The notes under the pieces: model-generated
What the model was told of the DNA's origin: nothing
The model's database searches: none
What the model saw: the letters and a program-made list of their open reading frames with translations, nothing else
In this document: positions 30,154 to 43,932 of the stretch, one piece after another
Layout of the letters: the number at the start of each line of letters is the position of its first letter
How positions within the stretch are numbered: position 1 is the first letter of the stretch
Translations under genes and position numbers: made by a program
Origin: a virus
IMG/VR virus record: IMGVR_UViG_3300009108_000013
Coordinates: 1 to 53,923 of that record
Reading direction: 5' to 3' (one strand)
Length of the DNA: 53,923 bases

Positions 30154-30271
30154 GCTAGTCTCCTATGTGGGTCTGATCAGCGGATGGGCTTTCCATCCAC
30201 TAAGTGATAGTCTAGCATGGGGGTGTGACAGTCGTTCTGCCACGACCCCCTTGCCGACTCCCTGTATGTTA

Positions 30272-31082: not shown

Positions 31083-31113
31083 CTGTCCGGCGATTGCCGT
31101 GTTGACAACTTCG

Positions 31114-31192
31114 TGGAGGTGCGGAGAATCGAACTCCGGTCCGAAAGCGTTCCGACATGCGGCTTTCACTTCCGTCTACACCGATCACCCCC
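31114..31192 (-). ncRNA. 79-nt tRNA/tmRNA-like RNA without an mRNA-like part
   Basis: Minus strand. Acceptor 5' strand GGGGGUG (31192-31186) pairs all 7 positions with CACCUCC (31121-31115, one G-U), then discriminator A. T-arm CGGAG-UUCGAUU-CUCCG is perfect. The 5' end GGGGGUGAUCGGUGUAGAC resembles the conserved 5' end of actinobacterial tmRNA (GGGGCUGAUCGGUUUCGAC), with no D-stem, as in tmRNA. A helix GAAAGC/GCUUUC takes the anticodon-stem position but encloses 13 bases, not 7. The whole message domain of tmRNA (about 250-300 nt) is missing. CCA is not encoded. It has its own promoter and terminator. Confidence 0.6.
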
Positions 31193-31205: not shown

Positions 31206-31234
31206 AGTATAGCATACCGGTGCCTGCTTGTCAA
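31206..31234 (-). promoter_or_regulatory. Promoter of the tmRNA-like RNA
   Basis: Minus strand TTGACA (31234-31229), 17-base spacer, TATACT (31211-31206). The predicted start lies about 7 bases before the RNA 5' end. Confidence 0.85.
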
Positions 31235-31560: not shown

Positions 31561-31629
31561 AGTATACACGCCGGGTGTGACACTGTCAAGTCAGCCCGAT
31601 TTGACATTGTCTCACCCATGTGCTATACT
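31561..31629. promoter_or_regulatory. Divergent promoter module 1
   Basis: Left (minus) promoter TATACT 31566-31561 with TGTCAA/TTGACA 31589-31584; right (plus) TTGACA 31601-31606 and TATACT 31624-31629; both spacers 17. The two -35 boxes are 11 bases apart. Right spacer TTGTCTCACCCATGTGC. Confidence 0.85.
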
Positions 31630-31634
31630 TACTT

Positions 31635-31690
31635 TATCGGGTCAACGGACCTGCTGTATCACAGCGATACGTCACTGCTTTGCGCGTCCC
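31635..31690 (+). ncRNA. Short structured RNA from divergent module 1
   Basis: Right-arm transcript has no ATG ORF. It contains GGUC-AACG-GACC and GUAUC-ACAGC-GAUAC, and then runs into the GCGTC dyad element. About 55-70 nt. Could be an orphan leader or a regulatory RNA. Confidence 0.4.
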
Positions 31691-31747
31691 GCCTTATTTA
31701 GCCCCGCTGTTGGTGCGTGGGTTCGGGGCTGATTCGGGACGCGGAAA
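31682..31747. repeat. GCGTC...TTTAGCCCCG...CGGGGCTGATT...GACGCG dyad element, copy 1
   Basis: Outer words GCGTC and GACGC, inner TTTAGCCCCG and CGGGGCTGATT. Sits between convergent transcripts, next to GC hairpins. Same arrangement recurs at 32369, 32866, 33514, 34217, 34864, 39131, 39757 and 40569. Confidence 0.75.
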
Positions 31748-31774
31748 AGGGGGGGGCCGAAGCCCCCCCAGTTC

Positions 31775-31981
31775 TCAGTAGACATACGGCCCTTCGACGC
31801 CGGGGATCGTATCCCCGCACGAATCGCAGGGGGTGTCGAACTCCAGTTCGTGGCAGCCGTCCCAACCGGCGTAGTCCACGTTCTGGTTCTGGCACCAACT
31901 CCGGTGGCAGTAATCGCCGCAGAAGTAGACCCGATCCATAACGTCGCCGTTGGTGTCGTCAATGTCATGCTTGTGCGCCAT
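31775..31981 (-). CDS. Cys-rich zinc-binding protein
   Basis: 68 residues; AGGAGACTGTC precedes ATG. FCGDYCHRSWC and DTPCDSCGDTI provide six Cys plus His, probably one or two zinc sites. MAHKHDIDDTNGD opening. Leader contains the shared GTTGACAACT word. Unknown role. Confidence 0.65.
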   Translation of the reverse strand: MAHKHDIDDTNGDVMDRVYFCGDYCHRSWCQNQNVDYAGWDGCHELEFDTPCDSCGDTIPGVEGPYVY

Positions 31982-32031
31982 GACAGTCTCCTATTCAGTT
32001 GTCAACGTGACCCTTCCGGCCACTGAGAACA

Positions 32032-32103
32032 AGTCTAGCACCCCGGTATGACAGTCACCAAGTCGGGGGCCGGTTTGACAATGTCGCACCAGTATGCTAT
32101 ACT
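32032..32103. promoter_or_regulatory. Divergent promoter module 2
   Basis: Minus side TAGACT (32037-32032) with a weaker -35 (TTGGTG); plus side TTGACA 32075-32080, 17-base spacer ATGTCGCACCAGTATGC, TATACT 32098-32103. Confidence 0.8.
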
Positions 32104-32107
32104 TATT

Positions 32108-32370
32108 GTTGTTGGGGAGAGAAAACCCCAACGCGAGGGTTTCTAGAAACCACAGAAACCCCCCGATTCCACAGGAACTAGGCTAGTTCTTTACCAGAAC
32201 CGCCAGTGTCGATGGGACAGGGACAGAAAGGACGAAAGTCCGCCACGGAGACAGTAGCCCGATTGTAGGGTTTGAGGCCAAACGCTGGGTCCGCAACGCA
32301 GTTCCTCCACCCCACGCACGAAAGCGTGAAACGAACTAGAAGTCCTGACACGGAAGCGGGGGGTTTTTGC
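32108..32370 (+). ncRNA. About 260-nt highly structured RNA
   Basis: Transcribed from module 2. 5' hairpins UUGGGG...CCCCAA (32112-32131) and GGUUUCU-AGAAACC (32138-32151); a long-range helix AAACCCCCCG (32156-32165) with CGGGGGGUUU (32357-32366), whose 3' strand runs into a U-tract as terminator; inside it CUAGUUC (32183-32189) can pair with GAACUAG (32333-32339), plus GGAC-GAAA-GUCC, GUUUG-AGGC-CAAAC and CACG-AAAG-CGUG hairpins. No ORF with ribosome site. The compact, closed domain suggests a functional RNA. No family recognised (RNase P considered and not supported). Confidence 0.6.
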
Positions 32371-32436
32371 GCGTCTGGTCTTATTTAGCCCCGCCGGTTG
32401 GTGCGAGGGCCGGGGCGTGTCGGGGCGCGAAAAAAG
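32369..32436. repeat. GCGTC/GACGC dyad element, copy 2
   Basis: GCGCGTCTGG...TTTAGCCCCGCC...GGCCGGGGCG...CGGGGCGCG. Lies between the structured RNA and the convergent 50-residue gene. Confidence 0.65.
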
Positions 32437-32459
32437 GAGGGCCGAAGCCCTCCTTCTCC

Positions 32460-32612
32460 CTACTTGCTAGCCGGGAACATTTCCATCCCGACCGGTACGC
32501 CATCGACGTACTTCGTACAAACAACACACGGGTATGGTCCCATCATGTTGCCGTCGCAGTTCCCCTCGCACTCGTACTGAATGCGAGCGGTATTCCGTAG
32601 GCGCTTTGCCAT
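32460..32612 (-). CDS. 50-residue Cys-containing protein
   Basis: MAKRLRNTARIQYECEGNCD ... YPCVVCTKYVDGVPVGMEMF; C-x3-C and C-x2-C make a probable zinc knuckle. AAAGGAGCATCCG precedes ATG 32612. Left arm of divergent module 3. Confidence 0.6.
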   Translation of the reverse strand: MAKRLRNTARIQYECEGNCDGNMMGPYPCVVCTKYVDGVPVGMEMFPASK

Positions 32613-32660
32613 CGGATGCTCCTTTATGTAGTTGTCAATGGCCCCTCGGCCACTAGAACA

Positions 32661-32729
32661 AGTATAGCAGACTAGTGTGACAGTGTCAAATCGGCCTGAC
32701 TTGACTATGTCTCATCCGTGTGATGGAAT
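32661..32729. promoter_or_regulatory. Divergent promoter module 3 (weak right arm)
   Basis: Minus TTGACA (32689-32684), TATACT (32666-32661). Plus TTGACT 32701-32706, but the -10 position reads TGGAAT, so the right arm should be weaker. Confidence 0.65.
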
Positions 32730-32767
32730 AGTTTTATTCCGCAAGGAGCGGATACAGAAAGGAAACG

Positions 32768-32848
32768 ATGGTATTCCTACCATTACTGCCCATCGTGACC
32801 GTTTGCGCGGCGCTTTGGTTGGTGTGTTCTGACCGGTTCACCGGTTAG
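32768..32848 (+). CDS. 26-residue membrane peptide
   Basis: AGAAAGGAAACG precedes ATG. The peptide MVFLPLLPIVTVCAALWLVC then SDRFTG is a single hydrophobic helix. Right-arm product of module 3. Similar in style to the peptide at 43808. Confidence 0.5.
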   Translation: MVFLPLLPIVTVCAALWLVCSDRFTG

Positions 32849-32865
32849 TCCACCGCCCCCCTTCA

Positions 32866-32939
32866 CGGGGGGGCAGCCATTTAGCCCCGGTACTGGAGCG
32901 GGAGTCGGGGCTGATCGACTTGACTCCAGACGCGCAGAA
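32866..32939. repeat. GCGTC/GACGC dyad element, copy 3
   Basis: CACGGGGGGG hairpin, then TTTAGCCCCGG...CGGGGCTGATC...AGACGCG; the left GCGTC half is degraded. Between convergent transcripts. Confidence 0.55.
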
Positions 32940-32976
32940 GCGCCACCCTTTCGGATGGCGCTCCTATTTCTTCGAC

Positions 32977-33291
32977 CTACCAGCCTGACGCTGCCAGAGC
33001 ATCTTCTTCCGTGACGACGAACCATTCTCCGTCCATCCACATCGAAGTCACTCCAAACGATGAAACATGCTCATGGAAAGCATCTTCCACTTCGTCCGCG
33101 ATCTCCATCGCTACGTCTGGAATGTTGGCAATCGTCCAACCACGGTCGTAGGCACGCATGATGCGCTTCTGCGATTCCGTGGCGTAGTCGTCCAACACGT
33201 TCAGAACCAGATGCGAAATCGCACGCCAGCCGTGAGTGCCATCAACGTGGCAGCCCAGATCGAATCCGATCACATTGCTGTAGTTCAGCAT
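32977..33291 (-). CDS. Small acidic protein, unknown
   Basis: 104 residues; AATAGGAGACACC precedes ATG in the shared GTTGACAACTAAATAGGAG leader. MLNYSNVIGFDLGCHVDGTH, helices in the middle and EWFVVTEEDALAASGW at the end. Unknown function. Confidence 0.65.
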   Translation of the reverse strand: MLNYSNVIGFDLGCHVDGTHGWRAISHLVLNVLDDYATESQKRIMRAYDRGWTIANIPDVAMEIADEVEDAFHEHVSSFGVTSMWMDGEWFVVTEEDALAASGW

Positions 33292-33353
33292 GGTGTCTCC
33301 TATTTAGTTGTCAACGCAGATGGTGTCCCATCCACTAGATACAAGTATAGCAG

Positions 33354-33412
33354 ATAGGTGTGACAGCGTCTAATCGGCCCAGTTTGACAATGTCACACTG
33401 GTATGCTATACT
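33354..33412. promoter_or_regulatory. Divergent promoter module 4
   Basis: Minus -10 TATACT (33359-33354) with a degenerate -35; plus TTGACA 33384-33389, spacer ATGTCACACTGGTATGC, TATACT 33407-33412. Confidence 0.8.
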
Positions 33413-33415
33413 TAC

Positions 33416-33515
33416 TTGTGAAGAAAGCGATGAGACAATGCGTATCAGCGCCATTCGACCCGATTAGGGAACTAGCAACAGGCGAATACGTCCTTTCGAT
33501 CTCGTCGCTTTTTTC
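33416..33515 (+). ncRNA. 100-nt rod-shaped RNA
   Basis: Ends pair: AGCGAUGAGA (33426-33435) with UCUCGUCGCU (33500-33509), extended by AAA/UUU, followed by CGUAU (33441) with AUACG (33486) and CGCC (33449) with GGCG (33481). The 3' strand ends in a run of U, so the rod is its own terminator. A 32-codon frame exists but has a poor ribosome site. Rod with internal loops resembles a small regulatory RNA. Confidence 0.55.
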
Positions 33516-33575
33516 GCGTCTTGTTTAGCCCCGCAGCCAGCAGCGGGGATCGGGACTGATTCAGGACGCGGAAAA
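33514..33575. repeat. GCGTC/GACGC dyad element, copy 4
   Basis: CGCGTCTTGTTTAGCCCCGC ... CGGGACTGATT..GGACGCG, one of the best-preserved copies. Between the rod RNA and the convergent 96-residue gene. Confidence 0.75.
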
Positions 33576-33600
33576 GGGAGGGCTTTCGCCCTCCCCCTTC

Positions 33601-33891
33601 TCAGACTGTAACTCCGTGAACGAATCGTGAGTAGTTCACGATCCACTCGTCGGTGCCGTTCAGCAGTCGGGCGTTCTCTAGAACGTCCTTCCGGTAAACG
33701 TCTCCCAAGTCGAATCCACCGAATGTGTGCGGGGACGAGACGTAGCAGAACCACCGGGAGTAGCCATCCTCGTTGTCCGGATGCTGGTAGGTCTTTACGA
33801 CGTACCAAGTCCATCCTGCGTCATTGACGTAGGTGGCGTAGGGATCGTCTTGTGGGACGATGCGCCCGAACGGATTGGTCTTACGAGCCAT
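33601..33891 (-). CDS. Small protein, unknown
   Basis: 96 residues: MARKTNPFGRIVPQDDPYAT, WTWYVVKTYQHP, FCYVSSPHTFGGFDLGDVYR and NGTDEWIVNYSRFVHGVTV. Beta-rich and aromatic. Shared AATAGGAGACAC leader. No motif. Confidence 0.65.
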   Translation of the reverse strand: MARKTNPFGRIVPQDDPYATYVNDAGWTWYVVKTYQHPDNEDGYSRWFCYVSSPHTFGGFDLGDVYRKDVLENARLLNGTDEWIVNYSRFVHGVTV

Positions 33892-33942
33892 GATGTGTCT
33901 CCTATTTAGTTGTCAACGTGACCGGGTCGGCCACTAAGAGAG

Positions 33943-34011
33943 AGTCTAGCATACTGGTGTGACACTGTCAACTCGGCCCAGTTTGACACTGTCCTACCCA
34001 TGTGCTATACT
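33943..34011. promoter_or_regulatory. Divergent promoter module 5
   Basis: Minus TAGACT (33948-33943) with TTGACA (about 33971-33966); plus TTGACA 33983-33988, spacer CTGTCCTACCCATGTGC, TATACT 34006-34011. Confidence 0.85.
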
Positions 34012-34067
34012 TATTGTTGTTGGAGGGGCCAGAAAGTGCCCCACTGATTCACCCAAGGAGGTGAGAC

Positions 34068-34187
34068 ATGAATCCAGCAGGAGACGAACTGGACTACGAA
34101 GCCCTCGCGGCTGAGTGGTACGGGCCGGACCCCAGCCGTTGGGACGACGATCCGTCGCCCTACGCGGGGACTTACTCTGAGGAGTAA
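34068..34187 (+). CDS. 39-residue acidic microprotein
   Basis: AAGGAGGTGAGAC precedes ATG, a full anti-Shine-Dalgarno match. The peptide starts MNPAGDELDYEALAAEWYGP and is rich in D, E, W, Y and P. Right-arm product of module 5, terminated at 34195. Similar in style to the products at 38799 and 39583. Small acidic phage peptides often mimic nucleic acid or bind host enzymes; that is inference. Confidence 0.7.
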   Translation: MNPAGDELDYEALAAEWYGPDPSRWDDDPSPYAGTYSEE

Positions 34188-34194
34188 GCCGGTG

Positions 34195-34216
34195 AACCCC
34201 CCGAAAGGGGGGTTTT
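34195..34216 (+). terminator. Intrinsic terminator
   Basis: AACCCCCC-GAAA-GGGGGGTTTT, after the 39-residue gene. Confidence 0.85.
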
Positions 34217-34284
34217 CCCGCGTCCGGGTGCGCCCCGCAGGCAGTTGGGGGGGCGGGGCTGATTGACTTGGCTCTAGACGCGAC
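34217..34284. repeat. GCGTC/GACGC dyad element, copy 5
   Basis: CGCGTCCGGG...GCCCCGC...GCGGGGCTGATT...AGACGCG between convergent transcripts. Confidence 0.7.
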
Positions 34285-34317
34285 GAAGGGGAGAGGCTTT
34301 CGCCCCTCCCCTTTCGC

Positions 34318-34533
34318 TCAGCCCACCAAGTCGCTGTTGCGCTTGATGTAGTTAGCCAGTTGGCCCATCGACTTCGTGACCGTGAAAGTCGCCATCGCTG
34401 CGAAAGCGTTGAGATTCTCGTAACGGTACTCCGTGTCGCCCCACAGGATCGCTGCGTCGCCGTTCACCCAGAGGGTGATCAGACGGGCACCGCTTGTGGT
34501 GGGGTGCTGGATGGTACACATTGGGATGTGCAT
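34318..34533 (-). CDS. Small protein, unknown
   Basis: 71 residues; AATAGGAGACAGAGG precedes ATG. MHIPMCTIQHPTTSGARLIT, LWVNGDAAILWGDTEYRYE and a helical end. Beta-rich first half. No motif. Confidence 0.6.
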   Translation of the reverse strand: MHIPMCTIQHPTTSGARLITLWVNGDAAILWGDTEYRYENLNAFAAMATFTVTKSMGQLANYIKRNSDLVG

Positions 34534-34588
34534 CCTCTGTCTCCTATTTAGTTGTCAACGTGGGTAGCAGTTGCTCCCACTAGAAACA

Positions 34589-34659
34589 AGTATAGCATAC
34601 CAGTGTGACAGTGTCAAGTCGGGGGCCGGTTTGACAGTGTCATACCCATGTGCTATACT
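34589..34659. promoter_or_regulatory. Divergent promoter module 6
   Basis: Minus TATACT (34594-34589), TTGACA (34617-34612); plus TTGACA 34631-34636, spacer GTGTCATACCCATGTGC, TATACT 34654-34659. Near-palindromic over about 70 bases. Confidence 0.9.
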
Positions 34660-34706
34660 TATTCTCAGTGGCTACCGGCCACGACAACTACAACTTAGGA
34701 GACACG

Positions 34707-34832
34707 ATGGACTACGACGCTTGGCTAGAAGCGCCCTACATGGAAGAAGGGTGCGAATGCGACGGCGGTTGCCATAGATGCGATGCCATACTGGCCGAAG
34801 ATTACCACTGGTCTACGGACCCAAGAGTCTAA
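34707..34832 (+). CDS. 41-residue acidic Cys-rich microprotein
   Basis: TTAGGAGACACG precedes ATG. MDYDAWLEAPYMEEGCECDG then GCHRCDAIL; C-x-C-x4-C-x2-C may bind one metal. Right-arm product of module 6. Confidence 0.7.
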   Translation: MDYDAWLEAPYMEEGCECDGGCHRCDAILAEDYHWSTDPRV

Positions 34833-34840
34833 AGAAACGG

Positions 34841-34865
34841 GGGGAGCCGAAAGGCTCCCCTCTTT
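34841..34865 (+). terminator. Intrinsic terminator
   Basis: GGGGAGCC-GAAA-GGCTCCCC then TCTTTC. Confidence 0.75.
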
Positions 34866-34924
34866 CGCGTCCCCCCTCAGTCCGCCCCGGAAGTCGCAAC
34901 AAAAAGCGGGGCTAGACGCGCAGA
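34864..34924. repeat. GCGTC/GACGC dyad element, copy 6
   Basis: CGCGTCCC...TCCGCCCCGG...GCGGGGCTAGACGCG, between two opposing terminators. Confidence 0.65.
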
Positions 34925-35206
34925 AACCCCCTTTCGGGGGATCTGGCTCGGGGGCTAGTCGGCGTCCATCTCTGGATCACCGCTTCCGCGAATGCGCCGG
35001 TTCTTCGCAACAACGCCATTTCAGGGTTGCTGGCCGGTTCTCGGCTGGCGTGGTATTCGCCAGCACTTAGACATTGGGGGAGAGCCGCTTTACTCAGCCG
35101 TGGTGACTGAGTGACAGATACCATCCTGTCACGGACTCGCCTTGAGCGCGACTCAGGCTATGTCCCCCTCCGATTCGCCTGCCTATTGGCAGGGCTTCGA
35201 TCTGTT
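34924..35206 (-). ncRNA. About 280-nt structured RNA with own promoter and terminator
   Basis: Runs from the promoter at 35213-35241 to the hairpin GAUCCCCC-GAAA-GGGGGUUU (34942-34924). Inside are CCUGCC/GGCAGG, CCUGAG...CUCAAGG, GACAG...CUGUC, CUCAG...CUGAG, GCUGGCG...CGCCAGC and a long-range GGGGGA/UCCCCC. A 70-codon frame exists but has no ribosome site and reads through the terminator. No RNA family recognised. Confidence 0.5.
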
Positions 35207-35212
35207 AGTAAT

Positions 35213-35241
35213 AGTATAGCACATAGGTGCGACACTGTCAA
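35213..35241 (-). promoter_or_regulatory. Promoter of the 280-nt RNA
   Basis: Minus TTGACA (35241-35236), spacer GTGTCGCACCTATGTGC, TATACT (35218-35213). Confidence 0.85.
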
Positions 35242-35242
35242 G

Positions 35243-35310
35243 TCCTCCAGCGGAGAATCGAACTCCTACAACCCATACTGGCGTTGCCCACTCCTCTACA
35301 TGACTGGAAG
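35243..35310 (-). ncRNA. 68-nt tRNA-like fragment (acceptor plus T-arm)
   Basis: Minus strand. CUUCCAG (35310-35304) pairs with CUGGAGG (35250-35244, one G-U), discriminator A; T-arm GGAG-UUCGAUU-CUCC. A helix CAAC/GUUG with CCA-GUA-UGG inside replaces a normal anticodon arm, and no D-arm is visible. Shares GCGGAGAAUCGAACUCC (complement) with the RNA at 31114. It lies after the 71-residue gene in the same transcript. Not a canonical tRNA. Confidence 0.4.
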
Positions 35311-35354
35311 GTGTTTCGACCGGTTCTGTTGCCACCCCCGGTCAGGGCCGATTC

Positions 35355-35570
35355 TCAGTCAGTGAAGATGTCGCGTGGCGTGATGCCAAGCGCTGCGTAG
35401 CGCCTCGCCCGTTCCGCTTCCACGGCCCGTACTTGCGCCTTGCGTGCCCGCTCCGCTCCCCAAGTGCGACGGTAGGTCGCTTTCGCTGCCCGGTAGGCGT
35501 GATTGCCTCCAAGCGTGGCGAGGGTTGCGAACATCGCTGCGACTGCGTCGGTGTCCTGCTTCGTTGCCAT
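35355..35570 (-). CDS. Arg/Ala-rich helical protein, leaderless
   Basis: 71 residues, MATKQDTDAVAAMFATLATL then basic helices (KATYRRTWGAERARKAQVRA) and ITPRDIFTD. The -10 TATAAT (35582-35577) is 6 bases before ATG, so the mRNA should start at the ATG. Basic helical character suggests nucleic-acid binding. Confidence 0.65.
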   Translation of the reverse strand: MATKQDTDAVAAMFATLATLGGNHAYRAAKATYRRTWGAERARKAQVRAVEAERARRYAALGITPRDIFTD

Positions 35571-35576
35571 GTAGGT

Positions 35577-35645
35577 ATTATAGCACCCCTGTGTGACATT
35601 GTCAAGTCAGCCCGATTTGACACTGTCATACCAGTGTGCTATACT
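35577..35645. promoter_or_regulatory. Divergent promoter module 7
   Basis: Minus TATAAT (35582-35577) with TTGACA (about 35605-35600), leaderless; plus TTGACA 35617-35622, spacer CTGTCATACCAGTGTGC, TATACT 35640-35645. Confidence 0.9.
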
Positions 35646-35694
35646 GTTTCTTAGTGGGGAAGCGCCCCACTTGTTGACAACAAGAGGAGACAAC

Positions 35695-35934
35695 ATGCAG
35701 TTCAGCATGTACACCCATGAGGGCGACAGGATGGTCCTAGCGTCCCTCCAGCGCCAACTGGAGATCGTCCTGTCCTTCACCCACGCAGTCACTGCGGAGG
35801 CGCTGGTAGGGCGAGTCGAAGCGGAGGTGACAGCGTGTGGTCACCCTGAGGTGACTGACACAGCGGTCAGGGAGTGGATTTACACCTATCTTGAGAACGA
35901 GGGCCACATCGTTCAGACGGAAGTGATCGTCTGA
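35695..35934 (+). CDS. Small helical protein, unknown
   Basis: 79 residues from ATG 35695, after AGAGGAGACAAC; the longer open frame runs into the promoter. MQFSMYTHEGDRMVLASLQR and TDTAVREWIYTYLENEGHIV suggest a compact helical (perhaps winged-helix) fold. Leader contains TTGACAAC as in the left-arm genes. LexA-type site directly after the stop. Confidence 0.65.
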   Translation: MQFSMYTHEGDRMVLASLQRQLEIVLSFTHAVTAEALVGRVEAEVTACGHPEVTDTAVREWIYTYLENEGHIVQTEVIV

Positions 35935-35950
35935 TCGAACAGGTGTTCGG
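35935..35950. promoter_or_regulatory. LexA-like box
   Basis: TCGAACAGGTGTTCGG, a CGAAC-N4-GTTCG core, starts at the stop codon of the 79-residue gene and precedes a GGAGG...CCTCC hairpin. Confidence 0.55.
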
Positions 35951-36031
35951 AGGGGGGGGCGAAAGCCTCCCCTCCACCCCTTTAGCCCCGCTTCTTCAAG
36001 GAGGTCCACTACTCAACAGACTGCGGGGCTT

Positions 36032-36472
36032 ATGATGTCCTTCATGGCGATCAGTTACGAGAAGGCGCGCAAACTCTTTGGCAAGTTCATCTCGTTCAAC
36101 CAAATGTTGTCGGAACAAGTTGAAGTAGAAAACTATTATCAGTTCTCTTATCGTTTAGATACTTATCAACTTTGGGCTGACTGTGATGAAGAACATCTCC
36201 CTTCGTCCCGCATGTTGTGCGCCCATGCGGGGCTACACATGGCAATCGTGGATTCGGACAACAGATTGGAGCAGGCGGAGTTCGCTGTGATGATGGGGCC
36301 GTTTGATCTGATGCGTGGTGATGATCCTGAACTTCTTTATCGACAGATGACGAAGAGTGTGAAAGCGGTGATAGGGACGGCGCAACTTCATATTCACGCG
36401 TTGGGTTACCCGTGTCATGATGAGTGCCAGTGCGAATCCATAGTGAATGAAGAGAACTATCTTGGCCCCTAA
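36032..36472 (+). CDS. Unknown phage protein
   Basis: 146 residues (an ATG at 36044 is also possible). MMSFMAISYEKARKLFGKFI, helical central region, His/Cys-rich end (HIHALGYPCHDECQCESIV) that could bind metal. Weak ribosome site. First gene of the locus leading to primase 1. Confidence 0.55.
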   Translation: MMSFMAISYEKARKLFGKFISFNQMLSEQVEVENYYQFSYRLDTYQLWADCDEEHLPSSRMLCAHAGLHMAIVDSDNRLEQAEFAVMMGPFDLMRGDDPELLYRQMTKSVKAVIGTAQLHIHALGYPCHDECQCESIVNEENYLGP

Positions 36473-36548
36473 ACCCCGTATTAGCGCCTCTGTGGGCCAT
36501 GGGCGACGACTGCGCCAAAGCGATCAGTCGCGTGAGCCGAGCCCGACG

Positions 36549-36638
36549 ATGACCGTTAGTCGAATACTTATCGACCTACAAAATAACTGGAGTTTCTTTG
36601 CACCTCTTCCTTATAAGAAACGGTTGTACCACAAATGA
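36549..36638 (+). CDS. 29-residue peptide, paralogue of the 47-residue peptide at 51450
   Basis: MTVSRILIDLQNNWSFFAPL then PYKKRLYHK. The segment LIDLQ(N/K)NWSFFAP is shared with the minus-strand product at 51450-51593, and the DNA of 36566-36606 matches the complement of 51536-51576 at 40 of 41 bases. Stop overlaps the next ATG (ATGA). Two occurrences in frame, both coupled, argue it is translated. Confidence 0.55.
   Translation: MTVSRILIDLQNNWSFFAPLPYKKRLYHK
36566..36606. repeat. 41-bp repeat, copy A (inverted copy at 51536-51576)
   Basis: Starts ACTTATCGACCTACAAAA and ends GTTTCTTTGCACCTC. It differs at one base from the reverse complement of 51536-51576. Contains AAACTCCAGTTT-like symmetry (AACTGGAGTTT). 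Both copies lie near a primase gene. Confidence 0.8.
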
Positions 36639-36772
36639 TGCTTGAAGTAGAAAACCGTGAACGATGGCTCATACTGAGAGCCTTACGGCGACTAGGCAAC
36701 GACGACAACAACGTCAAACTCGCCATCGAAGCCATCGACCTGCTAGAAAGACTCATCGATGACTACGACTGA
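36635..36772 (+). CDS. 45-residue helical protein
   Basis: MMLEVENRERWLILRALRRL, then LAIEAIDLLERLIDDYD: two helices, acidic end. Coupled to the 29-residue peptide by ATGA and overlapping the next gene by 14 bases. Unknown role. Confidence 0.55.
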   Translation: MMLEVENRERWLILRALRRLGNDDNNVKLAIEAIDLLERLIDDYD

Positions 36773-36959
36773 ATACACGACAGCGATACTGTCCCCCGAC
36801 GAAACACGCCTCATCGCCCAAGCACTACACTACCTGCACGGCTCCGACCAAATCACAACAAATAAAGACATCATCGAAGCAGGGCAACTCGTCCAATACT
36901 TCGACAGAGCATCTGGGATGGAGAGGAAACAATGGAAGATGTCTCACGCCACACAATAA
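36759..36959 (+). CDS. 66-residue helical protein
   Basis: MTTTEYTTAILSPDETRLIA then QALHYLHGSDQITTNKDIIE; helical, no motif. Overlaps both neighbours (14 and 28 bases), so part of the primase 1 operon. Confidence 0.55.
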   Translation: MTTTEYTTAILSPDETRLIAQALHYLHGSDQITTNKDIIEAGQLVQYFDRASGMERKQWKMSHATQ

Positions 36960-37684
36960 ACCTGTTCGCCGCCCTATTCGCAGGCGGACACATCGCCACC
37001 GACGACCCCACGGACAATAAAGGGTTTCGCCCATGGGAAAACCCTGCCGGAGGATGGCACAAAGCAACAGGAGCAGGCTACACAACGGCTGTTGAAGACC
37101 ACCTCACCAACGCAGACAAACCCAACATCGGTGTTTACCCGTTGACACGACACAACACCGAAGACGACGCAGCCGTCTACGTCACCCAATGGGGGTGCGT
37201 AGACTTTGACGAAGGCGAAGAAGCCTCACTAGCCCACGCCGTCAACCTCCAGACTGTACTACAACAACTTCAAGTAACTTCATGGATAGAACGCTCCCGA
37301 TCCAAAGGCTACCACCTGTGGGTATTTTTTGAGGAACCACTCCCGGCGCGCAAAGTACGAGAAGGACTGATCGGTGCATGCAACGTAGTTGATGCACCGA
37401 CAGTGGAGGTCAACCCGAAACAGTTGGTGCTAACAGGGCAAGGACTAGGCAACGGGGTACGTTTGCCGTACGGTTATCCCCGAAATGAGCACCGAAACAT
37501 TGTTGTTTACGGTGGCGCAGACATGTCGTTGGATGGATTTGCGGAACTCGCATCGAAAACAAGGGTCACACCTGTTGCGTGGAATGCCGTCACAGCCTTG
37601 TACAGCCCCCCCAAGCCCGTCCCAGCCCCCAAAGTGACCTACACCTACGGTGGGGGGGGTCAGAATGGCCCTAAATCCGTTTGA
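36932..37684 (+). CDS. Archaeo-eukaryotic-type primase (TOTE/AEP-like), copy 1, short
   Basis: 250 residues. CVDFDEGEEA (Asp91, Asp93) is the metal-binding D-x-D; ERSRSKGYHLWVFF (His128) is the s-x-H nucleotide-binding motif; EVNPKQ follows as the third element: the order of AEP primases of the TOTE-conflict type. Makes primers or fills gaps. Clearly paralogous to 52689-53654 (FAALxxGGxIA, GVYPL, FxERSRSKGxHxWV) but lacks its C-terminal helical 100 residues, ending in a low-complexity PKPVPAPK-GGGG tail. Confidence 0.8.
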   Translation: MEDVSRHTINLFAALFAGGHIATDDPTDNKGFRPWENPAGGWHKATGAGYTTAVEDHLTNADKPNIGVYPLTRHNTEDDAAVYVTQWGCVDFDEGEEASLAHAVNLQTVLQQLQVTSWIERSRSKGYHLWVFFEEPLPARKVREGLIGACNVVDAPTVEVNPKQLVLTGQGLGNGVRLPYGYPRNEHRNIVVYGGADMSLDGFAELASKTRVTPVAWNAVTALYSPPKPVPAPKVTYTYGGGGQNGPKSV

Positions 37685-37698
37685 CCCCAGACGCGAAG

Positions 37699-37720
37699 AA
37701 ACCCCCCTTTCGGGGGGTTT
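37699..37720. terminator. Bidirectional intrinsic terminator
   Basis: AAACCCCCC-TTTC-GGGGGGTTT separates primase 1 from the convergent 101-residue gene; T-runs on both sides. Confidence 0.85.
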
Positions 37721-37726
37721 CCAAGA

Positions 37727-38032
37727 TTACGCTACGACGTAGCGATTCGCTCTGTCTAGGAGCGTCCTGCCCTTCACGGTCACGCAGCGATCCACGCGAT
37801 CCGAATCGAAGGGTTCACCCACGCGACCCATGATGGGTTCGTGGTCCTGCCACTTGCAGTTTGGAGCGAAAGGCCGTGAAACGGAGCAGGTACCGTGACC
37901 ATGACGGTCCACTAGGCCGTAAAACTTCCTACCCGTGATCTTGCTACCCTCAATGTGCGAGGAGTAACGCAGGTACAAATCGCACCCGCAGTACCAGCAA
38001 GAATCCACGATAGGAGCATTTTTGAAATACAT
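37727..38032 (-). CDS. Cys-rich small protein
   Basis: 101 residues; AAGGAGGCGTT precedes ATG. SCWYCGCDLY, HGTCSVSRPFAPNCKW and VDRCVTV carry Cys/His that might form a zinc site (HNH-like spacing is not convincing). Basic. Unknown function. Confidence 0.6.
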   Translation of the reverse strand: MYFKNAPIVDSCWYCGCDLYLRYSSHIEGSKITGRKFYGLVDRHGHGTCSVSRPFAPNCKWQDHEPIMGRVGEPFDSDRVDRCVTVKGRTLLDRANRYVVA

Positions 38033-38100
38033 AACGCCTCCTTGGATTATCGGGGACGATCCCCGACGAGCAATACTTTACCAGACGCTTGTGACGGTGT

Positions 38101-38174
38101 CAAGTCAGGGGCAAGTCAGGGGCAAGTCACGCACGCAGGCGCACGCACGCGTGGGCGCGCACGCACGCGTGGGC
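38101..38174. repeat. Tandem repeats: CAAGTCAGGGG x2-3 and an 18-bp alternating GC unit x2
   Basis: CAAGTCAGGGG occurs twice, then CAAGTCA (38101-38129); the CAAGTC word is the core between the divergent -35 boxes. Then GCGCACGCACGCGTGGGC is exactly duplicated at 38139-38156 and 38157-38174, alternating purine-pyrimidine. No gene here. Confidence 0.75.
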
Positions 38175-38240
38175 GCGCGAGTCCCGAATAGGGCCGCAGC
38201 CCTCGGGGCTGGCGCGGGGGTTCGGGCGGGTGTAGACGCG

Positions 38241-38266
38241 AAAAAGCCCCCCCTTGCGGGGGGGGC
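38241..38266. terminator. Terminator hairpin
   Basis: AAAAAGCCCCCCC-TTGC-GGGGGGG; the A-run makes it an intrinsic terminator for minus-strand transcription of the 44-residue gene. Confidence 0.7.
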
Positions 38267-38275
38267 GGTGGTGGG

Positions 38276-38410
38276 TTAGGCTAAATCAGCCTCTTCCACC
38301 TCGCGTGCGAAGTCGGCAGCCGCTTCGGCGTTGCGCCGTCGCTGCTCTTCCTTCAGCCACTTCATTTGAGTGGCGCTGGGTTCGTGCCAGCCACAAGGGA
38401 TGTAACTCAT
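38276..38410 (-). CDS. 44-residue charged helical protein
   Basis: MSYIPCGWHEPSATQMKWLK then KEEQRRRNAEAAADFAREVE. AAGGAGGTGAT precedes ATG, the strongest ribosome site in the window. Helical, K/E/R-rich. Driven from 38437-38465. Confidence 0.65.
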   Translation of the reverse strand: MSYIPCGWHEPSATQMKWLKEEQRRRNAEAAADFAREVEEADLA

Positions 38411-38436
38411 AAAATCACCTCCTTCGTGATACCAGT

Positions 38437-38465
38437 ATTCTAGCACACCAGCATGACAGTGTCAA
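38437..38465 (-). promoter_or_regulatory. Promoter TTGACA-17-TAGAAT
   Basis: Minus TTGACA (38465-38460), spacer CTGTCATGCTGGTGTGC, TAGAAT (38442-38437). Confidence 0.8.
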
Positions 38466-38680
38466 GTCGGCGTTATGCGGGCGCAGCCGCGCACCTGCGC
38501 GAGTCCCGAAGGGGGCGCAGCCCGCCGGGACGTAACGAGGGACAAAAAAAAGCCCCCACCTGTCGGGATAACCCATTGGTGGAGACTTTTTGCTGCGGGC
38601 CGGTCGGTCATTTCTTTGTGCTGCCCGTGCGGGGTTTCGCGTCCCCGGCGGTCTTTCCGCTGCTTTCACTCAACACAATA

Positions 38681-38749
38681 AGTATACCACACCCTTACGA
38701 CAATGTCAAGTCGGGCCGATTTGCTATTGTCCTAGCCCTGTGCTATACT
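38681..38749. promoter_or_regulatory. Divergent promoter module 8
   Basis: Minus TATACT (38686-38681), TTGACA (38709-38704); plus TTGCTA 38721-38726, spacer TTGTCCTAGCCCTGTGC, TATACT 38744-38749. No good minus-strand gene follows to the left until 38410. Confidence 0.75.
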
Positions 38750-38798
38750 TGTGGTTAGTGGGAGGGGGCCGCCTCCCACACGACGGCAAGGAGCCATC

Positions 38799-38903
38799 AT
38801 GGACGACTTCTACGAGGATTACCCGGAGGACTTCTACGCGGAGCATCCCGAACAATGGGATCTCTTCGGAGAGGGCTACGAGGATCCGGCAGATCCGGCC
38901 TAG
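38799..38903 (+). CDS. 34-residue very acidic microprotein
   Basis: AAGGAGCCATC precedes ATG. The peptide opens MDDFYEDYPEDFYAEHPEQW; about 40% D/E plus aromatic residues. Right-arm product of module 8, followed by a terminator. Overlaps the minus-strand 71-residue gene stop by 4 bases. Confidence 0.65.
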   Translation: MDDFYEDYPEDFYAEHPEQWDLFGEGYEDPADPA

Positions 38904-39115
38904 TGGTCAGCCCCCCGCTTCGGTGGGGGGCTTTCTCGCGCCCTCGGGGCTTGCGGGGACGGAGGATAGATGATCTTGGTGCCTTCGGGGAGAATCCCGA
39001 TCAAAGAACGAAGGCAATGACGAATCTCGCCCTCGGAATCAACCCATTCTACCCAATAAATAGGATTAGTCAAGTTTTCGTAGTTTGATTCCGGGCGGTA
39101 CTTCTCTCGGGCCAT
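38900..39115 (-). CDS. 71-residue protein, leaderless
   Basis: MAREKYRPESNYENLTNPIY, WVEWVDSEGEIRHCLRSLIG, then a Pro/Arg-rich tail that reads through the opposite-strand terminator region. TTGCGG-17-TAGAAT lies upstream with the -10 six bases before ATG, so leaderless. The tail composition makes the 3' end less certain. Confidence 0.5.
   Translation of the reverse strand: MAREKYRPESNYENLTNPIYWVEWVDSEGEIRHCLRSLIGILPEGTKIIYPPSPQAPRARESPPPKRGADH
38909..38937 (+). terminator. Intrinsic terminator
   Basis: AGCCCCCC-GCTTCGGT-GGGGGGCT then TTCTC, after the 34-residue gene. Confidence 0.7.
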
Positions 39116-39130
39116 GTCTTATTCTATCTC

Positions 39131-39188
39131 ATCCGCCGCAGCCCCGCAAGTGGATGACAGTTTCGGGACTGATTGGGGACGCGAAGAA
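39131..39188. repeat. GCGTC/GACGC dyad element, partial copy
   Basis: CAGCCCCGCAAG...TTTCGGGACTGATTGGGGACGCG; the right half is well kept, the left GCGTC is missing. Confidence 0.5.
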
Positions 39189-39213
39189 ACCCCCACCGGA
39201 GTGGGGGCTGCTT

Positions 39214-39369
39214 CTAGTAGTTTAGCGTCGGTTCATCCAACGCTTCCCATGCTTCGTCGTTCCACTCGCCCTCGCCCCTAGCCCAACGATGGAGTTCTTC
39301 CATCTGGGCCTGAAACTCGGCAAGCGTGCCTTTATGTTCGACAAGCATGAGATCATGTTCGATCTTCAT
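39214..39369 (-). CDS. 51-residue acidic protein
   Basis: MKIEHDLMLVEHKGTLAEFQ then helical acidic end with W residues. ATG 39369 has GAAGGAGAAGC upstream; the longer frame crosses the promoter. Left arm of module 9. Confidence 0.6.
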   Translation of the reverse strand: MKIEHDLMLVEHKGTLAEFQAQMEELHRWARGEGEWNDEAWEALDEPTLNY

Positions 39370-39457
39370 TGCTTCTCCTTCGTTCGTTCCCCGCTGGGGC
39401 CGTAGCCGCGGCGGGGGCGCTTTACGGGCATCTGCGCCATCCCTTCTTGATAGAATA

Positions 39458-39526
39458 AGTATAGCATACCCGTGAGACAATGTCAAGTCAGTCGGATTTG
39501 ACAATGTCATCCTAGTGTGCTATACT
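39458..39526. promoter_or_regulatory. Divergent promoter module 9
   Basis: Minus TATACT (39463-39458), TTGACA (39486-39481); plus TTGACA 39498-39503, spacer ATGTCATCCTAGTGTGC, TATACT 39521-39526. Confidence 0.9.
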
Positions 39527-39582
39527 TACTTCATGGAGGGAAACCCCTTCATTGACAACTAAATAGCCTTAGGAGGCAATCC

Positions 39583-39720
39583 ATGACAGTCATAAACTGG
39601 ATGGACCTCGTAGACTGGGAAGCCCCAGTGGACGAGGACGATCTCTGGGAGGCAATCGCTGAAGCGAACGGCGTCGAATACGACGAAATCGCTGACGGTG
39701 ATCTCCTAGAGTTCATCTAA
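39583..39720 (+). CDS. 45-residue acidic microprotein
   Basis: TTAGGAGGCAATCC precedes ATG in the GACAACTAAATAG leader. MTVINWMDLVDWEAPVDEDD and onward: about one third D/E with W. Right-arm product of module 9. Confidence 0.7.
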   Translation: MTVINWMDLVDWEAPVDEDDLWEAIAEANGVEYDEIADGDLLEFI

Positions 39721-39731
39721 TCTCAAGAGGG

Positions 39732-39758
39732 AACCCCGGCCAATCGGTCGGGGTTTCT
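39732..39758 (+). terminator. Intrinsic terminator
   Basis: AACCCCGGCC-AATC-GGTCGGGGTT then TCTTC. Confidence 0.75.
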
Positions 39759-39827
39759 TCGCGTCTAGGGTTCCGCCCCCCGTTTAGTCCCGATGGTCGA
39801 ACGAATGTTCGGGGCTTAGTGACGCCT
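39757..39827. repeat. GCGTC/GACGC dyad element with LexA-like loop
   Basis: TTCGCGTC...GTTTAGTCCCGATGG...CGGGGCTTAGTGACGCC. Unlike other copies, the loop contains a LexA-type dyad (39797-39812). Confidence 0.65.
39797..39812. promoter_or_regulatory. LexA-like box
   Basis: TCGAACGAATGTTCGG, CGAAC-N4-GTTCG core intact. Confidence 0.5.
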
Positions 39828-39900
39828 GCCATAGAACAAGTGAACCGATTCACAAGTTCATCCGGTAGAATAAAGGCTGACCGACAAGCAAGAAAGAATA

Positions 39901-40050
39901 ATGAAAACTCTATTCAATAAAGTAAAGCATCTTCTAAAGCCAAGAACTAACCATTATTACTATCATAATCAAGTTATGACTGATGAACTGGAACGGGAAC
40001 TCATGAAGGCATATGCCGGGACTGGTTACCGCCGGGGCCGACGCCTTTAG
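39901..40050 (+). CDS. 49-residue basic protein
   Basis: MKTLFNKVKHLLKPRTNHYY, then YHNQVMTDELERELMKAYAG and TGYRRGRRL. AAGAAAG upstream is a weak ribosome site. Basic and AT-rich compared with its surroundings. No promoter of the family seen just upstream. Confidence 0.45.
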   Translation: MKTLFNKVKHLLKPRTNHYYYHNQVMTDELERELMKAYAGTGYRRGRRL

Positions 40051-40099
40051 TCCAACTTCGGACGCGGAAAAGCCCCCGACCGAAGCCGGGGGCCAATCC

Positions 40100-40273
40100 T
40101 CAATCCTTGGGGCAGGCGCATCCTGCAATGTTTGTGTACCACCCCCCGGCCACCATCTCATCGAATGTGTCGATGTGGCCGTAATCGCTACATTCGTCAC
40201 ATTGGACTAGGCCGGTGAATCCGGTCCCTACTGGTCGCCCGTTACGGCTACGGAGGTCGGTTGTGATTCCCAT
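40100..40273 (-). CDS. 57-residue zinc-type protein
   Basis: MGITTDLRSRNGRPVGTGFT, VQCDECSDYGH and AGCACPKD: C-x2-C plus C-x-C for a metal. AAGGAGAATCCC precedes ATG 40273. Left arm of module 10. Confidence 0.65.
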   Translation of the reverse strand: MGITTDLRSRNGRPVGTGFTGLVQCDECSDYGHIDTFDEMVAGGWYTNIAGCACPKD

Positions 40274-40331
40274 TGGGATTCTCCTTCTATTTAGTTGTCA
40301 ACTAAGCGGGGTACTTTCTCCCACTACAAGT

Positions 40332-40401
40332 ATTATAGCATAGTCACTAGCCCCTGTCAAGTCGAATCAGACTTGACATTGCCTCACCCTTGTGCTATAC
40401 T
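40332..40401. promoter_or_regulatory. Divergent promoter module 10
   Basis: Minus TATAAT (40337-40332), TTGACA (about 40360-40355); plus TTGACA 40373-40378, spacer TTGCCTCACCCTTGTGC, TATACT 40396-40401. Confidence 0.85.
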
Positions 40402-40412
40402 TAGTATTACGA

Positions 40413-40527
40413 GGTCGGCCAAAGATGAGGCACGGTGTCCTTGGGTAATGTAACTGCACGGCGTGGCGTATTACAGCGTGAAACCGTGTTGCCCAAGTAT
40501 TGCAGGGTTCGACTCCCTGTCCGATCA
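40413..40527 (+). ncRNA. 115-nt tRNA-like RNA with enlarged anticodon domain
   Basis: GGUCGG (40413-40418) pairs with CCGAUC (40521-40526, one G-U), discriminator A40527, then CUA instead of CCA. T-arm CAGGG-UUCGACU-CCCUG (40503-40519) is perfect, and a 5-base variable loop precedes it. UUGGG (40441-40445) and CCCAA (40492-40496) occupy the anticodon stem but enclose 46 bases, in which CACGG/CCGUG can pair. A 3-bp D-stem GAU/GUC is possible. Own promoter (module 10) and terminator. Not a translatable tRNA as it stands. Confidence 0.55.
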
Positions 40528-40544
40528 CTAACGAGTGAAGAACG

Positions 40545-40566
40545 CCCCCGCTTCGGCGGGGGTTTT
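40545..40566 (+). terminator. Intrinsic terminator of the tRNA-like RNA
   Basis: CCCCCGC-UUCG-GCGGGGG followed by UUUU. Confidence 0.85.
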
Positions 40567-40568
40567 CT

Positions 40569-40648
40569 CGCGTCTACACCCCTTTAGACACCGCAAGCCC
40601 CGCCAACCCGACCGAAACTCGGGACTATTCGACTCCGCACGCGAAAAA
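40569..40648. repeat. GCGTC/GACGC dyad element, diverged copy
   Basis: CGCGTCTACACCCCTTTAGA...CTCGGGACTATTCGACTCCGCACGCG; both ends recognisable. Confidence 0.5.
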
Positions 40649-42309: not shown

Positions 42310-42338
42310 AGTATAGCATCTTTCTAGTCGTTTGTCAA
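42310..42338 (-). promoter_or_regulatory. Leaderless promoter of the Fic gene
   Basis: Minus TTGACA (42338-42333), 17-base spacer, TATACT (42315-42310), then AATACGC and ATG. Confidence 0.85.
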
Positions 42339-42629
42339 GTCAGCCACATGACTCAAGTCAATGGCCCTCAAACGCAGGATGTTGTTACGTTCAGCCGGTG
42401 TAGCCCCGCCCCAAACGCCAAACTCTTCCTTCTGGCGCAAGGCGTAATCCAAGCATTCCTTCTGAACTGGGCAACTCCGACAGATTGCTTTCGCAATCGG
42501 AATGTTGGATGACTTCCCAACATCAACGAAGAATACTTCAGTTGGATGGCCCGCACATGCTGCGTCGTCGGCCCATGCTGTTTCTTCAAAGTCTCGTTCT
42601 TCACCGATGTGTCTTTGTCTAGGTTCCAT
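42324..42629 (-). CDS. whiB: WhiB-family iron-sulfur transcription factor, second copy
   Basis: 101 residues. Cys25, Cys50, Cys53 and Cys59 (C...C-x2-C-x5-C) and GVWGGATPAERN are the canonical WhiB motifs, closer to the host consensus than the 126-residue copy at 14311. Likely binds sigma-A and redirects or blocks host transcription. A long structured leader (42670-42787) lies between promoter and gene. Confidence 0.93.
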   Translation of the reverse strand: MEPRQRHIGEERDFEETAWADDAACAGHPTEVFFVDVGKSSNIPIAKAICRSCPVQKECLDYALRQKEEFGVWGGATPAERNNILRLRAIDLSHVADLTND

Positions 42630-42669
42630 CGTTCTCTCTCTTTCGGGGCTTATGGGGTAGGGGGAGGCA

Positions 42670-42787
42670 GGAGGGTGCCACCTAACTAGATACGTCTAGT
42701 GATTTCGACCCACTACAGGCACGGCTGGGCTAAGCACCCGCAGTACCGCTTTTGGCCGTACCGTTATTCGGTGTGCGTACACCCTCC
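42670..42787 (-). ncRNA. Structured 5' leader of the second whiB
   Basis: Minus strand. GGAGGGUG (42787-42780) closes with CACCCUCC (42677-42670), 8 bp. Inside are ACUAGA-CGUA-UCUAGU (perfect), UAGUG...CACUA and GUAC-containing hairpins. The ATG follows about 40 bases later. Riboswitch-like or a processed RNA; no family recognised. Confidence 0.55.
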
Positions 42788-42802
42788 TACTTCCTTAGTT
42801 CT

Positions 42803-42831
42803 AGTATAGCAGATCAGCCAGTCAATGTCAA
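42803..42831 (-). promoter_or_regulatory. Promoter of the whiB leader
   Basis: Minus TTGACA (42831-42826), 17-base spacer, TATACT (42808-42803). It overlaps the end of the deacetylase gene. Confidence 0.85.
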
Positions 42832-43743: not shown

Positions 43744-43764
43744 AAGTTATTCCTCCTGTGTATT

Positions 43765-43793
43765 AGTATAGCACAAAGCAAGTCGTTTGTCAA
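43765..43793 (-). promoter_or_regulatory. Promoter of the deacetylase gene
   Basis: Minus TTGACA (43793-43788), 17-base spacer, TATACT (43770-43765). Confidence 0.85.
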
Positions 43794-43807
43794 GTCCGGG
43801 GCTTACC

Positions 43808-43888
43808 GTGTGGTTAGAAATCATTACAGTTGCGTGTATCGCTCCCCTCGCCGTGTTGTTTGTGCTGACTTGGTGGGACAACAAATAA
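43808..43888 (+). CDS. 26-residue membrane peptide
   Basis: GTG start; MWLEIITVACIAPLAVLFVL then TWWDNK: one hydrophobic helix. Terminator right after the stop. No plus-strand promoter or good ribosome site, so only moderately supported; similar in style to 32768-32848. Confidence 0.35.
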   Translation: MWLEIITVACIAPLAVLFVLTWWDNK

Positions 43889-43932
43889 AGAAGCCCCCGC
43901 ACGGGACCAGAGGTCATAGGCGGGGGCTTCTC
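43889..43932. terminator. Bidirectional terminator-like hairpin
   Basis: AGAAGCCCCCGC-type arms: GAAGCCCCCGC...GCGGGGGCTTC, 11 bp, with a 20-base loop. Confidence 0.6.

Follow-up and report, generated by a model that had tools for sequence, protein, structure and literature searches.

A predicted phage promoter box, merged with sigma-A promoters in ten divergent cassettes of a likely actinophage and used without a -35 element in other phages

Introduction

Bacteriophage T4 has early promoters with a -35 and a -10 element, and middle promoters in which the host -10 is kept and a MotA box centred at -30 replaces the -35 (PMC2988021). According to a 2010 review of T4, sigma appropriation had until then been found in T4-type phages only (PMC2988021). 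Here we describe ten back-to-back promoter pairs, located between positions 31,561 and 40,401 of the IMG/VR virus record IMGVR_UViG_3300009108_000013 (53,923 bases, GC 52%; this whole stretch is called the window below), whose promoters contain, within the spacer, a box reading TGTCACAC. T4 would be the closest working analogue of this arrangement: both phages have two promoter kinds and dozens of sites, and both retain the host -10 (with TGn in about half of the T4 cases) and have a phage box for the -35 (PMC2988021). The window box, however, spans about -28 to -21, nearer to the -10 than the T4 MotA box centred at -30, the host is actinobacterial, many promoters carry both signals, and the box words vary between related phages. 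We do not claim membership of the T4 type, because the position of the box differs and no relative of MotA or AsiA was found among the window proteins scanned against PHROGs or Pfam, which represent part of the open reading frames (ORFs) of a record that may itself be a fragment.

Two other systems resemble the region in part. Cluster K mycobacteriophages have repeated, subcluster-specific motifs upstream of many non-structural genes, including an AGGAG-bearing start element: the 13-bp start-associated sequence (SAS), GGGATAGGAGCCC, occurs near gene starts in 11-19 copies, and the extended SAS (ESAS) is a 17-bp inverted repeat (PMC3203893). ESAS is thus an inverted repeat and not two divergent promoters, whereas the start element of the window is TTGACAACTAAATAGGAGACA; the SAS word is not enriched in the window (2 weak matches for 1.0 expected). 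The host takeover module of Bacillus phage SPO1, in which early genes, most of them small, are likewise clustered and have strong promoters and ribosome sites (PMC6873191), may be the closest functional analogue of the small-gene cluster; the window units differ in being divergent pairs, in giving nearly every gene its own promoter and in including RNAs among their cargo.

Promoter pairs, the spacer box and three promoter types

All ten divergent pairs proposed in an initial annotation of the window were found at their place, the two -35 boxes of each pair lying 11-13 bases apart (11-14 in the annotation) and, as it had also noted, mostly exact 17-bp spacers (19 of 20 arms; the 32061 arm has 18 bp). 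The modules are listed below, with the -35 starts given as minus/plus strand, M for leftward genes and R for rightward cargo.

Module 1, 31561..31629: promoters 31561-31589 (-) and 31601-31629 (+), both composite; -35 starts 31589/31601; M1 31268-31507, 79 aa; rightward RNA R1
Module 2, 32032..32103: promoters 32032-32061 (-; 18-bp spacer, box 8 bp from -10) and 32075-32103 (+); -35 starts 32061/32075; M2 31775-31981, 68 aa; rightward RNA R2
Module 3, 32661..32729: promoters 32661-32689 (-) and 32701-32729 (+; weak -10); -35 starts 32689/32701; M3 32460-32612, 50 aa; R3 membrane peptide 32768-32848, 26 aa
Module 4, 33344..33412: promoters 33344-33372 (-) and 33384-33412 (+); -35 starts 33372/33384; M4 32977-33291, 104 aa; rightward RNA R4
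Module 5, 33943..34011: promoters 33943-33971 (-) and 33983-34011 (+); -35 starts 33971/33983; M5 33601-33891, 96 aa; R5 acidic, 34068-34187, 39 aa
Module 6, 34589..34659: promoters 34589-34617 (-) and 34631-34659 (+); -35 starts 34617/34631; M6 34318-34533, 71 aa; R6 acidic, 34707-34832, 41 aa
Module 7, 35577..35645: promoters 35577-35605 (-) and 35617-35645 (+); -35 starts 35605/35617; M7 leaderless, 35355-35570, 71 aa; R7 acidic, 35695-35934, 79 aa
Module 8, 38681..38749: promoters 38681-38709 (-; no evident gene) and 38721-38749 (+); -35 starts 38709/38721; R8 acidic, 38799-38903, 34 aa
Module 9, 39458..39526: promoters 39458-39486 (-) and 39498-39526 (+); -35 starts 39486/39498; M9 39214-39369, 51 aa; R9 acidic, 39583-39720, 45 aa
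Module 10, 40332..40401: promoters 40332-40360 (-; no TGTC) and 40373-40401 (+); -35 starts 40360/40373; M10 40100-40273, 57 aa; rightward RNA R10 with tRNA-like T arm

When up to one mismatch per hexamer is allowed, 38 promoter-like sites lie in the window, compared to 4.5 +/- 2.1 in 100 first-order Markov simulations, and 7 divergent pairs, compared to 0 in the same simulations. One of these seven pairs lies at 43.07 kb, outside the ten modules, and the modules that are not in the count have one arm with more mismatches. A strict motif search gave 20 matches and none in the reversed control. The weak rightward -10 of module 3 reads TGGAAT in the window and TAGAAT in the near-identical strain G001, with two changes 3 bp apart. 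The module cores are 49-76% identical to one another over ~85 bp, and the modules are related by descent.

The two words that had been noted in the spacers, TGTC-NN-AC and GTGTGC, are both real but are two separate things, GTGTGC containing the extended -10 (TGC before TATACT) and TGTCnnAC being the body of the box, which is placed exactly 8 bp before the -10. The spacer similarity holds in an alignment of the modules: over the 20 arms, TGTC has a mean pairwise identity of 0.93 and the variable spacer positions (1, 6 and 10-13) one of 0.40, a difference for which common descent alone would be insufficient. The distance from box to -10 stays at 8 bp even where the -35 spacer is 18 bp long (30671 and 32061). 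Since TGTC is conserved, its distance to the -10 is fixed and it occurs without a -35, we consider TGTCnnAC to be a separate element, and because this element is also used alone in relatives, the cassette promoters are best described as predicted composites, in which a near-consensus sigma-A promoter is combined with a phage-lineage box.

The initial annotation had noted a central palindrome, CAAGTC..GACTTG, as the place to look for the footprint of one DNA-binding protein. The module centre does read CAARTC-nGnCn-GAYTTG, but this is a loose palindrome that follows mostly from two GAYTTGACA arms, rightward arms having GAT, GGT or AGT and leftward arms mostly GAC before TTGACA. GAC also precedes the TTGACA of single promoters, with C at -1 in 17/17 of them and A at -2 in 15/17, and beyond the two arms only the central G-n-C is extra. 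The palindrome is therefore not supported as the main operator, and a palindromic operator at the module centre would not be needed; the conserved word lies within the spacer, anchored to the -10, and is found without a -35 or a mirror half.

Similar single promoters do occur from 24 to 47 kb, and a family of promoters with a shared grammar appears to drive small units, most of them bounded by terminators, whose cargo varies and is either protein or RNA. To call this one regulon is too simple, as three promoter types were found: sigma-A-only promoters dominate at 42-47 kb, composites at 31-41 kb, and box-only or mixed forms at 26-31 kb. The box lacks a -35 (within 2 mismatches) at 7 of 22 window sites; the -10, TANANT, is at the fixed offset and TGC is present at most window sites. 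Sites with the box but without any -35 (26310, 27228, 27519, 27585 and 30230) are all on the minus strand. Single promoters of the three types include the following.

26289..26310 (-): box-only, weak -10; before VWA-like gene 24748-26244
27207..27228 (-): box-only, TGTCACAC-N8-TAGACT
27498..27519 (-): box-only, TGTCACAC-N8-TACACT; before gene 27235-27468
27564..27585 (-): box-only, TGTCACAC-N8-TATACT
30209..30230 (-): box-only, TGTCACAC-N8-TAGACT; before gene 29743-30153
35213..35241 (-): single composite promoter of a structured RNA at about 34950-35206 (-), fold z = -3.99
42310..44584 (-): sigma-A-only single promoters, no TGTC box, at 42338, 42831, 43793, 44092 and 44584; two with leaderless starts

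Four leaderless ATGs in the window (promoters at 35605, 42338, 44584 and 47165) lie 6-7 nt after the -10, a spacing that gives independent support to the predicted start sites. Taken over several promoters, the distance from the -10 to a leaderless ATG is 6-8 nt.

The box in other phages

Box-bearing relatives include record G026, reached through a search with the VWA-domain-like protein, and G047, added together with several further records by pattern scan. Box-only sites stand before genes in these phages, among them a G026 homolog of cargo gene M5 (75% identity; L109/G026), which lies behind TGTCACAC-N8-TACACT without a -35, as does the G026 homolog of gene 29743-30153. No -35 within 2 mismatches accompanies 18 of about 22 box sites in G026 and 11 of 11 in G047, and G033 (GC 43%) has composite and box-only sites together. 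The offset of the box from the -10 is exactly 8 bp at 13/16 sites in the window, 19/25 in G026, 10/17 in G047, 10/19 in G058 and 8/11 in G054; the offset histograms show almost no box/-10 matches at other distances, and five records initially classed as negatives show no matches. When all 6-mers were scanned without bias at all offsets from the -10, the words recovered were TTGACA-N17 and GTCACA-N9 in the window, GTCACA-N9 or variants of it in G026, G033, G047, G058 and G054, and TGTAAC-N10 in G027.

The phages that carry the same word at the same offset are independent and range from 43 to 59% GC. Variants occupy the same position in G054 (TGTCAGAC), G058 (TGTCGCAC) and G027 (TGTAACAC); a different box, TCCGGAGAA, takes the place of such variants among other phages, and G030 has a different word, AATCCGGAGAAnnACGCA, in about 22 promoters of the grammar AATCCGGAGAAnnACGCA-N5-TAAGAT, several of them leaderless and four forming two back-to-back pairs (L369-L370). 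A change of word at a fixed position is what would be expected if each phage had its own reader. With the box proper to each phage, back-to-back pairs were found in G026, G027, G030 (the two above), G033 and G058, for 0.01-0.14 expected per phage, and close convergent pairs were absent from the same relatives. The G033 pair is composite, with TTGACA on both arms and -35 starts 13 bp apart, like the window pairs, and the window phage would have expanded this divergent-pair design to ten. The structure is real and exceeds chance by far, and it gains in interest over its first description because the key word in it seems to belong to a promoter class common to uncultured actinophages.

Possible readers and roles of the box

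What the sequences show is a fixed spacing, sites that lack a -35, conservation between phages and recurring divergent pairs; a timing, a reading factor and a function for the cargo are inferred. We think it fairly probable that the modules are autonomous divergent units in which a sigma-A promoter and a phage-lineage box are superposed, and that the composite, since it carries both signals, is active both on entry of the DNA and after a switch in transcription. The ten modules would then be mostly autonomous, terminator-bounded transcription units. Their sigma-A signal, TTGACA-N17-TATACT, usually with the extended -10 TGC, would allow the host polymerase to fire at DNA entry, while the box 8 bp before the -10, which would replace the -35 in the window phage and its relatives, would be read by a factor that is probably phage-encoded or phage-recruited. 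Composite promoters could in this way remain active while transcription shifts from the sigma-A-only promoters at 42-47 kb to the box-only promoters at 26-30 kb, and most transcripts of protein genes would either have a hairpin and a strong ribosome site at their start or lack a leader. That this represents a promoter switch of the actinophages' own, with a phage factor (or a WhiB-like (Wbl)/sigma complex) reading a lineage-specific box, a dispensable -35, a specificity that drifts and both codes merged in ten takeover cassettes, has in our opinion about an even chance of being correct. If true, this switch would be a sigma-appropriation-like mechanism outside T4-type phages.

Several points weigh against these proposals. 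The promoters and start sites are predictions. Full sigma-70 genes are present in only 2 of 16 records (G033 and G062), which names no factor and leads us to reject sigma-70 as a universal reader. A terminase-linked WhiB protein is an unlikely reader, because very similar C-termini go with different boxes. The cargo proteins tested from either arm belong to no recognised Pfam family, with the exception of one weak match. Finally, the scan of 84,980 GTDB species genomes, in which the composite pattern had 0 exact matches, covered this pattern only. Among other candidates, WhiB7 is known to make its contact upstream of the -35 and not between -35 and -10 (PMC10245118). A family of small basic proteins common to five box-positive phages was also rejected, as its profile misses the window and G054 and gives a weak match in G027.

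The scope of the genome scan is also why a host reader is possible: the box might be read by a host protein or a host sigma factor, the phages copying an actinobacterial promoter type. This would fit with unrelated phages sharing the element and with none of the phage genes examined tracking the box, but the box differs between phages at the same position (TGTCACAC, TGTCAGAC, TGTCGCAC, TGTAACAC and the other word in G030), and the lack of composite matches in the species genomes, for what that scan covered, also argues against it. We therefore consider a host reader unlikely. Somewhat less probable still is that TGTC and the -35 together form the operator of a phage repressor that shuts off the cassettes after early infection or in the lysogen. 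In most arms GACAnTGTC forms a perfect palindrome, which overlaps the -35. Operators of many temperate phages overlap the -35 region, and the repressor site of L5 overlaps a -35. At the box-only sites, however, TGTCACACC is complete and keeps its 8 bp to the -10 although the GACA half is missing; 18 of 22 G026 sites have no -35 at all, whereas few sites lack a -10. The stoperators of cluster A phages such as L5, dispersed in the genome with the consensus GGTGGMTGTCAAG, are not enriched in the window (1 match with 2 mismatches for 2.7 expected), and the proteins scanned include neither an integrase nor an immunity repressor. It is very improbable, lastly, that the modules are simply recent duplications of one strong host-type promoter pair, with the likeness of the spacers due to descent without function. 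The mutual identity of the module cores is what duplication would produce, but the free spacer positions have diverged to 0.40 identity with TGTC at 0.93, and independent phages of 43-59% GC share both the word and its offset.

A box in place of the -35, with phage-specific words in many actinophages, would make the question of sigma appropriation directly testable in a major bacterial group, and the composite of an ordinary bacterial promoter with a virus-lineage signal suggests a so far undescribed route for redirecting the host transcription machinery. The box may also provide a sequence-only route to genes and RNAs expressed during infection by uncultured phages, because start sites, leaderless genes and non-coding RNAs follow it, and the cassettes give a list of small proteins and RNAs that merit testing for a role in host takeover.

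Cargo, leaders, terminators and RNAs

The leftward arms had been said to feed genes of 50-105 codons; nine such genes were found (50-104 codons), and the module 8 arm has no ORF with a ribosome site. For the rightward arms, the six peptides that had been given were recovered as five acidic proteins, with net charges from -8 to -15, and a membrane peptide of 26 residues. The four RNAs were recovered as well, but R1 is not supported as a structured RNA because it folds no better than shuffles (z = 0.10). The R9 protein has a homolog in L124 (55% identical). The other three RNAs are as follows.

32104..32375 (+): R2 structured RNA, ~261 nt, terminator at end; z = -3.85 vs shuffles
33413..33515 (+): R4 structured RNA, ~95 nt; z = -3.13
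40402..40575 (+): R10 RNA, canonical T arm (CAGGG-UUCGACU-CCCUG) and terminator; z = -1.64 (modest)

The structured RNAs, R2 included, gave no convincing Rfam match as known riboswitches or RNase P, and the match of R10 to Rfam models is weak and confined to its T arm. A tRNA-like T arm (GTTCGAYTC) without a recognisable tRNA is present at 40402-40545 (+), which may hold a pseudoknot, and at 35249-35345 (-).

Most mRNA leaders have a short hairpin at their start, together with a strong ribosome site. The repeated leader element is:

33294..34558 (-): TTGACAACTAAATAGGAGACA, exact at 33294-33314, 33896-33916 and 34538-34558, with 2 mismatches at 31985-32005; preceded by a short 5' hairpin

The leader 29110-29240 (-) of gene 28746-29096 looks like a closed multi-hairpin RNA (CCCATAGG...CCTATGGG), with no Rfam match at E up to 1. 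Many units on both strands end in a hairpin and a T run followed by CGCGTC. In the cassette region CGCGTC (or CGCGCC) follows most terminator T runs, at 31679, 32364, 33509, 34213, 34863, 38932 and 40563 (+) and at 31748, 32435, 33575, 34926, 38245 and 40071 (-), and often flanks an AGCCCCG...CGGGGCT inverted repeat between convergent units.

On its left, module 1 adjoins a tag-less tmRNA-like RNA.

31111..31192 (-): tRNA-like domain of tmRNA, 82 nt, lacking the mRNA-like domain; Rfam RF00023, 59.3 bits, E 9.5e-21; about 294 model positions missing
31206..31234 (-): its single sigma-A-type promoter (no TGTC box)

This form of tmRNA is rare. Mycobacterium phage DS6A likewise encodes only the tRNA-like domain, and a similar molecule is reported to be a strong tmRNA inhibitor (PMC4131195, PMC11915505); the window RNA differs in coming from another phage and in lying behind its own sigma-A-type promoter next to the cassette region. 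A host-directed role for the region gains some support from this neighbour, which is the best hint at the proposed counter-host factors. The cargo of small acidic proteins, membrane peptide and structured RNAs is most likely host-directed, and host takeover by the cassettes would be plausible.

Further candidate tag-less RNAs, some sharing the hairpin motif AAAGCCG...CGGA, occur in viral contigs L187, L188, L190, L191, L195 and L300 (Streptomyces phage Alone3, around 1175-1260); the scan pattern for the tRNA-like domain alone also caught many ordinary tmRNA 3' halves, which were removed by eye. The Alone3 candidate is unannotated and within a tRNA array, and that of L195 lies beside about 20 tRNAs.

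The virus record and its relatives

The window virus is most likely an actinophage, possibly an incomplete record, because it has two WhiB-like genes, a family described as exclusive to Actinobacteriota (PMC10202952), and a metallophosphoesterase for which phages of Clavibacter, Microbacterium, Streptomyces and Mycobacterium gave the best relatives. WhiB genes are present in 15 of 16 related records.

42324..42629 (-): WhiB-like gene, actinobacterial host marker and candidate regulator; second copy at 14311-14691 (+)

Strain G001 (IMGVR_UViG_3300009109_000015) covers part of the window at 99.8-99.98% identity, with 16 differences over ~14 kb. A near DNA search against 50,697 phage records found no relatives of the cassette region, promoter-string searches gave chance-level matches only, and an exact scan of IMG/VR for the composite pattern matched only G001 and one unrelated gut-phage-like contig.

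The window also has host-like metabolic or signalling genes: a PhyH dioxygenase (9143-9895), an IMP dehydrogenase-like gene (17694-18776), a nucleotide-sugar epimerase (18828-19910), Fic (41784-42302), a histone-deacetylase-like gene (42814-43743) and a dual-specificity phosphatase (45731-46441). Two primase-polymerase-like genes, 36932-37684 (+) and 52689-53654 (-), both match phrog_21866, and close to them the DNA near 36.57 kb resembles that at 51.54 kb in inverted orientation, a probable duplication.

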